Assembly (NCBI RefSeq): GCF_900113135.1
Contig: NZ_FOOH01000001.1
Coordinates: 1 to 64,000 of the forward strand
Length of the DNA stretch: 64,000 nt
Direction of reading: 5' to 3'
Source of the DNA: Salegentibacter agarivorans
GTDB taxonomy: Bacteria; Bacteroidota; Bacteroidia; Flavobacteriales; Flavobacteriaceae
The notes under the pieces were generated by a model. That model did no database searches and had not been told where the DNA came from. It was given only the letters and a program-made list of their open reading frames with translations. Below, one piece after another: positions 29,382 through 63,173 of this stretch. Numbering within the stretch: position 1 is the stretch's first letter; every line of letters begins with the position of its first letter. Both the position numbers and the translations under genes were made by a program.

Positions 29382-29453
29382 GGTCCGTTCGTCTAGGGGT
29401 TAGGACGCCAGGTTTTCATCCTGGTAACAGGGGTTCGATTCCCCTACGGACTA
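29382..29453 (+). tRNA. tRNA-Glu (anticodon TTC), copy 1
   Basis: A complete 72-base cloverleaf. Acceptor GGTCCGT pairs with ACGGACT, where the first pair is a G-U wobble; anticodon arm CCAGG-TTTTCAT-CCTGG gives TTC; T-loop TTCGATT; discriminator A at 29453. CCA is not encoded. Identical to the copy at 29520. After it, 29460-29485 forms a weak 7-bp AT-rich hairpin with T-run, probably too weak to terminate. Confidence 0.97.
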
Positions 29454-29519: not shown

Positions 29520-29591
29520 GGTCCGTTCGTCTAGGGGTTAGGACGCCAGGTTTTCATCCTGGTAACAGGGGTTCGATTCCCCTACGGACTA
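29520..29591 (+). tRNA. tRNA-Glu (anticodon TTC), copy 2
   Basis: Same 72-base sequence and fold as the first copy, 66 bases downstream, with no promoter box of its own. Processed from a shared transcript that probably continues into rpsT 29 bases on. Confidence 0.97.
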
Positions 29592-60776: not shown

Positions 60777-60986
60777 CTAATTAGCCGCTTTTTTTTCTCC
60801 AGAGCAATCAGACATTTCATCGGGTAATTTACCGCAAAAACTGCAGGCTTCACCTTCTTTATTTAAAAACGGACTTTGGCTTGCGCAGGTTCCTGCAAAT
60901 TTACCGTCCTTCTTTCCCCATATTTTTATGGCAATTCCGGCAAAGGCCAGTCCTAAAAGTACTATTGTTATTAATAATAATTTCAT
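60777..60986 (-). CDS. Small membrane-anchored Cys-rich protein
   Basis: 69 residues. One membrane helix (about 3-23, LLITIVLLGLAFAGIAIKIW) is followed by a short hydrophilic tail with four cysteines: GTCASQSP, EACSFCGKL and SDCSG. CxxC suggests a metal or redox site. Family unknown to me, though conserved in flavobacteria. First gene of the run to the sigma factor; promoter box TATTTTTG upstream. Confidence 0.75.
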   Translation of the reverse strand: MKLLLITIVLLGLAFAGIAIKIWGKKDGKFAGTCASQSPFLNKEGEACSFCGKLPDEMSDCSGEKKAAN

Positions 60987-61217: not shown

Positions 61218-61838
61218 ATGAAAACTAAAATTTTAATAATTCTTCTGGCAGTTTTTGCTTTCAGTTTTACTTCTTGTGAAGATACCAAAAAGAAAGAAGA
61301 AGAAAAAGCTAAAATGGAGCAGCAGGAAGCCGAACGCCAGGCTGAAATGGCTGCAGAAGAAGAACGGATGGAAATGGAGTCTAACAGTATTGCTGCAAAA
61401 GCAATGGAGACCGATTCTTTAAGCACTCTTGTAAGTGCATTACAAAATGCTGATTTAGCTGATACTTTTACCGAAGATGAAGGCCCATATACGGTTTTTG
61501 CTCCCACCAATAGCGCTTTTGAAAAAGTTGACGAGGCTACAATGGATGAATTGATGAAGAGTGAAAATCAAGACCAATTAGCTACTGTCTTAAAATACCA
61601 TGTGATAGATGATGAAATAACAGCTTCAGATCTAAGCCAAATGATTGAAGATGGCGAAGGAGAAGCAAGTATTTCTACCTTGGATGGTGCTGAACTTAAG
61701 GTAATGAGGGAAGGGGACAATATTGTTTTGCAAGATGAAAATGGAAACAAAGCAACTATTATTGCTACAGATATTGAAGCCTCTAACGGAATGGTGCACC
61801 TAATAGATGGGGTGGTAATGAAGAAAAAAGAATCTTAG
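61218..61838 (+). CDS. Fasciclin-domain lipoprotein
   Basis: 206 residues, lipobox ending at Cys20 (SFTSC). A charged coiled linker (25-60, rich in Glu, Lys, Met) leads to one FAS1 domain, about 65-203, with the family boxes TVFAPTNSAFEKV and VHLIDGVVM. FAS1 domains mediate adhesion or ligand binding at the cell surface. Single gene, with its own terminator. Confidence 0.93.
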   Translation: MKTKILIILLAVFAFSFTSCEDTKKKEEEKAKMEQQEAERQAEMAAEEERMEMESNSIAAKAMETDSLSTLVSALQNADLADTFTEDEGPYTVFAPTNSAFEKVDEATMDELMKSENQDQLATVLKYHVIDDEITASDLSQMIEDGEGEASISTLDGAELKVMREGDNIVLQDENGNKATIIATDIEASNGMVHLIDGVVMKKKES

Positions 61839-61862
61839 TTAGATAAAAAGATTGATTTTGAA

Positions 61863-61901
61863 TAAAATCCACTGGTAATATTTTACCGGTGGATTTTTTT
61901 T
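61863..61901 (+). terminator. Terminator of the fasciclin gene
   Basis: A stem of about 15 bp with one mismatch (AAATCCAC...GTGGATTT) and a short AT loop, followed by TTTTTTTT. Confidence 0.85.
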
Positions 61902-61910
61902 GGAATTATT

Positions 61911-61952
61911 TTAAAAAAGAAAAGCTTCATTTTCTTTGCGGAAAATGAAGCT
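61911..61952 (-). terminator. Terminator downstream of the TPP riboswitch
   Basis: On the minus strand, a perfect 12-bp stem (61941-61952 with 61923-61934) with loop CGCAAA, then TTTCTTTTTT. A smaller hairpin, AAAGAC/GTCTTT, lies between it and the aptamer (61960-61980), as expected for a switchable terminator. Confidence 0.85.
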
Positions 61953-61984
61953 CTCTCTTAAAAGACAATAAAGTCTTTACAGAT

Positions 61985-62058
61985 TCAATATTTCCTACGC
62001 TGGGATTAACCAGATCAGGTTTTACGGGTATATCTCAGCCTAAGCACCCCGATATTGA
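61985..62058 (-). ncRNA. TPP riboswitch (THI element), orphan
   Basis: On the minus strand the conserved TPP aptamer is complete: GGGGTGC, GCTGAGATA, ACCCG, ACCTGATCTGG and CCCAGCGTAGGAAA, closed by a 7-bp P1 stem (62052-62058 with 61985-61991). A weak promoter-like box TATATTTA lies at 62064-62071. No gene follows on this strand for about 900 bases: next come its terminator, the fasciclin gene on the opposite strand, and only then the small-protein operon. So it is either a stand-alone RNA or part of the murB 3' UTR. Confidence 0.93.
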
Positions 62059-62159
62059 TTTTATAAATATAAGATTATTTTTGAATGTAAACTGCTAATT
62101 GTAAGTTAATTAAGGAAGTGGTTTTGTAGGGGAAGCGTTAATTTTTTTCCTACAAATAT

Positions 62160-63173
62160 TTAAAATACATTAACTTCAGGTTCAAGTTTGACATTGTAAT
62201 TTTTATAAATTTTATCCTGAATTTCCCTGGAAAGTGCTAAAATTTCTTCCCCGGTAGCGTTTCCATAATTAACCAATACCAACGCCTGGTTTTTATGAAC
62301 TCCTGCATCTCCCTGTCTGTAACCCTTTAAGCCAGCCTGGTCTATTAACCAACCTGCGGGAATTTTTATGTTATTTGCCTGCAAGGCATAAAAAGGCATT
62401 TCTGGGAATTTTTTTTGAAGTTTTTTAAATTCAGCCTCTTTTATCACCGGATTTTTAAAAAAACTACCGCTGTTTCCTAATTCCCTGGGATCGGGTAATT
62501 TTTGCTGCCTAATGCTTATAACAGCATCAGATACATCTTTAATGTTAGGTTTTTTAATTTGCTTCTTATCTAATTCAGCCTGGATGGCACCATATTCGGT
62601 TCTTAATTGATGATCTTTTTTGCTTAATCTAAAATTAACCGATGTGATAATATATTCTCCCTTCAGCTTATTTTTAAATACTGAATTACGATAATCAAAT
62701 TCACATTGTTGCAGGTTAAAAGTTTCAATTTCCAGGGTTTGTATTCGCATAGCCTCGCAAGATTCAAATGTATCTTTGAGTTCCACGCCATACGCTCCTA
62801 TATTTTGAACGGGTGCTGTGCCCACATTTCCAGGTATTAGGGAAAGGTTTTCTAATCCGCCGTAAGCCTTTTCTATACAATAAAGCACAAATTGATGCCA
62901 GTTTTCACCGGCACCAACTTTTAAAACTACTTCATCCCGACTTTCAGAAATAAGTTCTATTCCCTTAATGCCAATATGAACCACTGTTTTATCTATATCC
63001 TGGGTAAGCAACATATTGCTGCCGCCGCCAAGTACAAAAATTTCTGAGGCATAGGTTTGCTGTAAAACATCACGCAATTCATCAGTAGAATGCACCGAGA
63101 CGAATTTCCGGGCATTTACATCTACTCCAAAAGTATTGTGTTCTTTCAGTGAAAAATTTTCAGCAACCTGCAT
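62160..63173 (-). CDS. murB: UDP-N-acetylenolpyruvoylglucosamine reductase
   Basis: 337 residues, type I MurB. FAD-binding VLGGGSNML, NVGTAPVQNIGAYGVEL, the catalytic Ser in GNSGSFFKNP and the C-terminal Glu in LEPEVNVF. It reduces enolpyruvyl-UDP-GlcNAc to UDP-MurNAc with NADPH, a cytosolic step of peptidoglycan synthesis. The start is 3 bases after the aminotransferase stop. The TPP riboswitch begins about 100 bases after its stop. Confidence 0.96.
   Translation of the reverse strand: MQVAENFSLKEHNTFGVDVNARKFVSVHSTDELRDVLQQTYASEIFVLGGGSNMLLTQDIDKTVVHIGIKGIELISESRDEVVLKVGAGENWHQFVLYCIEKAYGGLENLSLIPGNVGTAPVQNIGAYGVELKDTFESCEAMRIQTLEIETFNLQQCEFDYRNSVFKNKLKGEYIITSVNFRLSKKDHQLRTEYGAIQAELDKKQIKKPNIKDVSDAVISIRQQKLPDPRELGNSGSFFKNPVIKEAEFKKLQKKFPEMPFYALQANNIKIPAGWLIDQAGLKGYRQGDAGVHKNQALVLVNYGNATGEEILALSREIQDKIYKNYNVKLEPEVNVF

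Follow-up and report, generated by a model that had tools for sequence, protein, structure and literature searches.

An apparently free-standing TPP-aptamer RNA gene conserved in Salegentibacter, with related elements in other Flavobacteriaceae

The murB-fasciclin intergenic region of Salegentibacter agarivorans

The window analysed here is a stretch of 64,000 nucleotides from the genome of S. agarivorans. Near its end two genes converge, murB (62160..63173, minus strand; Pfam MurB_C, 106.6 bits) and a gene encoding a fasciclin-domain protein (61218..61838, plus strand; Pfam Fasciclin PF02469, 117.1 bits). The interval between them contains, on the minus strand, a TPP aptamer with helices P1 to P5 at 61985..62058, where P1 is formed by pairing of 62058-62052 with 61991-61985. 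The Rfam search matched RF00059 over the full length of the model (1-105) at 61975-62061 with 72.2 bits (E 2.8e-12), which exceeds the gathering cut-off of 54.3 bits and places the element within this family. An earlier note made from the sequence of the window had described a complete aptamer with a P1 helix and had proposed this search as a check, and both the match and the paired core agree with that description.

The small hairpin that the note had placed after the aptamer was also present, at about 61956..61983 (minus strand), and consists of a basal UCU/AGA pairing and a stem. It is followed by an intrinsic terminator with a T-run at 61913..61955 (minus strand), the stem of which (GAGAGCUUCAUUUUC/GAAAAUGAAGCUUUU, with the core AGCUUCAUU/AAUGAAGCU) has 15 pairs at 61955-61920, the T-run extending to 61913. 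The terminator and T-run reported previously were therefore borne out, and only the stem length of 12 bp given for them was slightly short. No other terminator-like site was listed in 61600-62300 (mean of 0.3 in shuffled sequences), and by this sequence criterion the element carries the terminator expected of a transcription-attenuating riboswitch. Folding of the element (146 nt) gave -45.3 kcal/mol in comparison to -27.8 +/- 3.4 kcal/mol for shuffled sequences, a value that beat 200/200 shuffles (z -5.14).

Riboswitches are almost always cis elements. Past this one, a mechanical ORF list of the minus strand gave two TTG-start frames (60 and 121 aa) that lie around the fasciclin gene or antisense to it, and the next minus-strand ATG ORF (69 aa, 60777-60986), for which a Pfam search returned no family, starts roughly 930 nt beyond the T-run. 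Together with the convergent orientation of the fasciclin gene, this confirmed the previous statement that nothing is encoded after the aptamer. A second hairpin at about 61865-61896, just past the element and followed by a T-run on the plus strand, appeared by eye to be the fasciclin gene's own terminator; it was not listed by the terminator scan and would also obstruct antisense read-through. Elsewhere in the window, two identical tRNA genes are found in tandem at 29382-29453 and 29520-29591, whose anticodon appears by eye to be TTC (Glu).

The same genome contains three further TPP matches (threshold E 0.001), of which two score below the cut-off, at 44.8 and 33.4 bits. All three have the usual cis layout, with a methyltransferase and thiL-like gene pair behind one, an ORF resembling a TonB-linked receptor behind another and the gene of a PnuC-type transporter behind the third; among these genes only PnuC passed an NCBIfam curated cut-off. 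The match before the PnuC gene (L004, G000:C29:75753-75817; the 33.4-bit match) spans only 65 nt, and its 5' half seems either to have degenerated or to be interrupted by a long insertion such as that seen in the L054 leader. An RF00059 search of 41 genomes of the family at 1e-7 returned 25 matches in 19 genomes. The next ORF was on the same strand for 21 of the 25 matches and was by eye of the thiS/thiC, thiM/thiD, methyltransferase, receptor or PnuC type, one of the 21 (L173) being unclear and taken as thiS. The four matches without such an ORF comprised two elements of the kind described above, hereafter class A, and two of a second kind, class B. Cis TPP switches of the family, found before thiM and the methyltransferase-thiL-like operon (L058, L060, L067, L059 and L066), share the aptamer, hairpin and T-run with class A but differ in that a same-strand operon follows, with the ORF start 125-143 nt after CTGAGA.

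Distribution and conservation of the class A element

A whole-element covariance model (R1), built from 10 sequences, identified the whole class A element in 11 of 15 Salegentibacter genomes with scores of 112.1-169.0 bits, the next-best match scoring 49.6 bits; TPP matches of some kind were present in all 15. In 10 of the 11 genomes class A is located between murB and a convergent fasciclin gene, so that the regulated same-strand gene that a cis riboswitch would have close downstream is not found there. The genes murB and fasciclin were adjacent and the element was missing in G001, G003, G005 and G011, and class A is therefore dispensable in 4/15 genomes of the genus. At five murB loci of the genus that lack the element, an Rfam search at relaxed thresholds yielded three matches, which all scored below the cut-offs of their families and of which none was TPP. 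The presence of class A showed no obvious correlation with thiC, as thiC-type leaders occurred in five genomes with the element and three without it.

The eleventh class A element, in G012, is located at an unrelated locus and possesses the promoter-like box described below, the aptamer, the hairpin and the terminator core. Neither murB nor fasciclin adjoins it, the upstream ORF is on the opposite strand, and in this genome no fasciclin gene was found within 1.5 kb beside murB. Because an M15 peptidase gene follows on the same strand, with its start 335 nt past the T-run, the element may act in cis at this locus. The G012 locus also bears on whether class A could be the murB 3' UTR switch that the earlier note had considered, with murB mRNA as its target. 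Such a role would fit the distance from murB to the element, which was 98-101 nt in seven syntenic named genomes, but it is improbable in view of the G012 element, which lies away from murB behind an opposite-strand ORF, and of the promoter-like box that separates murB from the aptamer. The absence of both usual neighbours in G012 and the low identity of the sequence past the terminator (43%) likewise weakened the previous suggestion of an antisense transcript against the fasciclin gene.

When the G000 clade was compared with the clade of G010, G013 and G002 (21 pairs, not counting G012), sequence identity was 0.786 for the element, in comparison to 0.427 for the upstream flank (0.343 when shuffled) and 0.426 for the downstream flank; the 70 nt past the terminator were thus poorly conserved. 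For murB the same comparison gave 0.44 at third codon positions and 0.80 at first and second positions. The conservation of class A is about equal to that of murB first and second codon positions, indicating at the level of sequence that the element is under purifying selection.

Covariation was examined on two alignments. In the first (A6, 11 class A sequences fitted to the covariance model, and hence leaning towards it), 98.4% of cells pair and 10/46 pairs showed a compensatory change, with 17 compensatory cells where shuffles gave 5.4 and sliding of the partners no more than 5; further pair types showed no excess over shuffles (18 vs 17.3). The hairpin at 61956-61983 contributed eight of these, as 8/10 of its pairs had changed in a compensatory way in one or more of the 11 sequences. 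In the second (A1, a MAFFT alignment of 10 sequences not fitted to the model) covariation was weak, with four compensatory pairs vs 2.7 in shuffles (equalled by 120/500), 8 cells vs 3.1, and 3/10 hairpin pairs with a compensatory change. The terminator core AGCUUCAUU/AAUGAAGCU was invariant in the 11 sequences of A6, and P1 and this core neither support nor oppose the structure because they hardly vary.

These results are pertinent to the proposal that the element is the remnant of a lost thi gene or operon. The other TPP matches of this genome, ahead of thiamine-related genes, would be in keeping with such an origin, but the level of conservation and the compensatory changes led us to reject it. 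The synteny comparison that the earlier note had recommended also contradicted it, as fasciclin and not a thi gene follows the element in all 10 syntenic genomes, and of the explanations considered here we hold this one to be the least probable.

A promoter-like box and an intact ligand pocket

Passages of PMC9723704 and PMC7366714 give TAnnTTTG as the -7 consensus of flavobacterial sigma-A promoters, and a box resembling it (TATATTTA) is located at 62064..62071 (minus strand) of the window. A TAnnTTT[AG] box starting 13 nt upstream of P1 was found in 11/11 class A sequences (shuffles: mean 1.45, maximum 6) and in 0/11 in each of two other windows used as controls. The last base of the box is A in 10/11 and G, as in the consensus, in 1/11. 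A sigma-70 scan showed no excess over shuffles (3 vs 2.9), which was expected as the promoter would be of another type. A sigma-A-type promoter is thus predicted just before the aptamer in all 11 sequences and, with the terminator at the other end, class A would have both boundaries of an independent small RNA unit.

Class A sequences retained CUGAGA, CCUGA and G78 in 11/11, and C77 was replaced by U in three; the alignment columns that we take to be G60, C77 and G78 were assigned via the E. coli thiM sequence. According to passages of PMC7824784 and PMC3764141, C77 and G78 contact the pyrophosphate of TPP and G60 is situated beside it. The residues of the RF00059 pocket for both pyrimidine and pyrophosphate were accordingly found in class A, which should bind TPP.

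Proposed mode of action of class A

The reading that we favour, at a probability of roughly 0.57, is that class A is a standalone gene for a TPP-binding small RNA that probably acts in trans. Comparison of the sequences supports the aptamer, the terminator, the conservation of the unit and its independence of neighbours. The thiamine-dependent small RNA that the earlier note had listed among its possibilities is hence favoured by the conserved unit, the promoter-like box, the terminator and the second locus, and its dependence on thiamine would follow from the intact pocket. In this model the element, about 145 nt long, would be a small RNA gene in its own right, transcribed from the sigma-A-type promoter just before the aptamer to the predicted stop at the element's own terminator. 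The product is likely to be a short terminated RNA because the conserved unit consists of box, aptamer, hairpin and terminator and the 70 nt beyond it are poorly conserved. The 5' half of this putative RNA would be the TPP aptamer with its intact pocket, and the 3' half the hairpin and the terminator stem with its invariant core. Binding of TPP would most likely lock the aptamer and thereby alter either how stable the RNA is or how available its 3' part is, whereupon the RNA would act elsewhere in the cell, on an mRNA or a protein.

Alternatively, class A may be a transcription attenuator of the TPP-off type with a read-through product of functional importance, where without TPP the 3' strand of P1 (GGAAAU..UGAA) would form an antiterminator with the terminator strand UUCAUUUCC and a longer RNA would extend antisense into fasciclin or to the next minus-strand gene. 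This would explain the invariance of both P1 and the terminator core, and in truncated transcripts the forced alternative structure differed from the best fold by no more than about 2 kcal/mol in 7/9 comparable class A sequences (G006 and G007 left out). Against it, duplex strength surpassed shuffles at the 0.05 level in 0/11 sequences (P 0.057-0.464), and the cost of blocking P1 was at least the average for shuffled terminator strands in 10/11 (the fraction of shuffles that were equally or more favourable was 0.18-0.95), albeit in a test of little power that flagged 0/7 correctly parsed cis controls (0.23-0.83; L002 and L013 were misparsed). When applied to 16 of 25 class B sequences the same test gave fractions of 0.08-1.00. 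The sequence past the terminator, where a longer RNA would continue, is poorly conserved and different in G012, and we consider attenuation unlikely, although it is the strongest of the competing explanations.

Returning to the favoured trans-acting RNA, no long conserved single-stranded stretch that could serve as a seed was visible in class A, where invariant sequence falls within stems, and limited searches of its own genome (start-codon complement; duplex energies) found no target. The idea that the terminator strand AGCUUCAUUU pairs with AAAUGAAGCU at gene starts was tried and set aside. The sequence AAATGAAGCTYT occurs 19 times in the genome vs twice for a backward control, and two of the 19 occurrences are the element itself. 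Among 16 of the other 17 sites (L166 left out) none opens an ATG frame of more than 50 codons and nine fall within sense frames longer than 250 codons; codon usage is a likely cause of the excess over the control. Duplex energies with the starts of the methyltransferase, TonB receptor and PnuC genes ranked 11, 28 and 25 among 56 background starts, and one strong background duplex was discounted as its ATG lies inside an aminotransferase ORF.

Relation to known riboswitch RNAs

Class A has the aptamer sequence, fold and ligand residues of the RF00059 TPP riboswitch and differs from it in having no close same-strand gene behind and in being conserved as a free-standing terminated unit. To our knowledge, the trans-acting riboswitch examples known so far use B12 or SAM aptamers. 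The SAM riboswitch SreA of Listeria was reportedly proposed by Loh et al. in 2009, a study cited in PMC7266159, to act in trans on a distant mRNA, and the class A RNA would resemble it as a riboswitch RNA with a proposed action at a distance. Trans-acting riboswitches are called rare in a passage of PMC7266159, which adds that regulation of an adjacent gene by these RNAs also occurs at times; class A differs from these Listeria-type RNAs in that no adjacent gene is close behind it. EutX of Enterococcus and Rli55 of Listeria are described in passages of PMC7602753 as riboswitch-containing sRNAs that sequester EutV. The resemblance of class A to them is architectural, the aptamer being part of an RNA that would act in trans and not the leader of an adjacent mRNA. 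EutX and Rli55 sense B12 and carry an ANTAR-binding site (PMC7602753, same passages), whereas the class A aptamer is of the TPP type and the conserved RNA is nearly all aptamer, hairpin and terminator.

Riboswitch-containing sRNAs are already known, and class A would probably be a form of them with a TPP aptamer. No paper on a free-standing TPP-aptamer RNA was found among the matches listed for open-licence PMC articles, which is no proof of absence. A free-standing TPP-aptamer RNA gene appears to be conserved in this group of marine, salt-loving bacteria and, if true, such a gene without a close neighbour to regulate would add the TPP aptamer to the small trans-acting group. The first report of a trans-encoded RNA from Bacteroidota whose targets had been identified dates from 2020, according to a passage of PMC7366714.

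Class B elements in other Flavobacteriaceae

An R1 search of 299 Flavobacteriaceae genomes at 1e-6 gave matches in 39, with full-length class A scores in G000 and G010 only; the next match, of 70.6 bits, was ahead of a thiM-like ORF. Class B was first recognised at eight of 30 loci from this search, where a TPP-like aptamer is followed directly by the terminator stem CAAAGGGAA/UUCCCUUUG. Rfam RF00059 scored these eight loci at 47.9-65.0 bits, four of them above the cut-off. A second model (R2) made from the eight loci identified class B in 23/299 genomes of the family, at 25 loci, after three of 28 rows were left out as not class B (the class A aptamers of G000 and G010, and L108 of G200, which is directly before an ORF). 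A pattern scan of named genomes, with a pattern built on known sequences that favours these, gave 35 matches. These were eight class A, all from Salegentibacter, 22 class B (14 Aequorivita, 4 Gelidibacter, Marinirhabdus, Luteirhabdus, Pukyongia and one Flavobacteriaceae MAG) and five others.

The plan of class B comprises a -7 box, a TPP-like aptamer and a terminator conserved in sequence. The box was found at 19/25 loci (shuffles: mean 4.2, maximum 9), and 46 class B upstream sequences, three of which repeat others, contained 37 occurrences of GTTAAA at -60 to -51. The longer motif TGTTAAA, at a near-fixed distance upstream of most class B elements, may be a site for an activator or belong to a promoter of unusual type. 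For class B, an alignment fitted to R2 comprised 44 different sequences and showed compensatory changes in 27/38 pairs; the compensatory cells numbered 144, where shuffling gave 29.4 and sliding of the partners no more than 28.

No thiamine gene was recognised behind class B elements. The nearest downstream ORF, as given by a crude ORF caller, was convergent at 17/25 loci and at the other eight was on the same strand, 205-636 nt beyond the element. Pfam assigned one of six of these eight ORFs to fatty acid hydroxylase and one to GHL10, with no family for four, and the starts of the remaining two (L088 and L103) resemble two of the six. Two Gelidibacter elements from named records (L138 and L139) have a same-strand ORF only 81 and 88 nt after the T-run, that of L138 being nicotinate phosphoribosyltransferase. 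Neighbours differ between genera, with prfB beside L086 and the others named by eye only. The class B loci and the G012 locus of class A thus show conservation irrespective of neighbouring genes, as is expected of a trans-acting riboswitch-containing sRNA.

The pocket of class B is altered, as CUGAGA was kept in 42/44 sequences, G60 in 5/44 and G78 in 2/44, and judging from these residues most of class B may not bind TPP or may bind something else. This raises the question of whether the aptamer fold has been kept for a role other than TPP sensing in vivo, either as a constitutive structured sRNA or for another thiamine-related ligand. Class B would suit such a role, since most of its members lack the pyrophosphate-contacting residues and yet keep CUGAGA and most of the terminator sequence, but the pocket residues checked in class A are kept in 11/11 apart from C77; for class A we regard it as doubtful, on much the same footing as attenuation or slightly below it.

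A broader and more tentative proposal, which we consider possible though somewhat short of an even chance, is that Flavobacteriaceae possess a family of free-standing TPP-aptamer sRNAs that signal thiamine status in trans. Class A would sense TPP, class B would sense another thiamine-related ligand or none, and the CAAAGGGAA/UUCCCUUUG stem would be a sequence-specific effector module. With its pocket changed and its RNA conserved, class B would represent a natural experiment in aptamer repurposing. With regard to a possible small peptide, the ATG-led frames in the class B terminator differed among three sequences compared by eye.

Further features of class B were noted. In L086-L113 and L115-L148 the CCUGA...CGUAGG segments are replaced by forms such as CUUCG...CAGAAGG, with the pairing compensated, and the sequence of the terminator stem is nearly constant while the aptamer changes. 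Class B is present twice, at separate loci, in each of the genomes G222 (L105 and L112) and G278 (L106 and L113).
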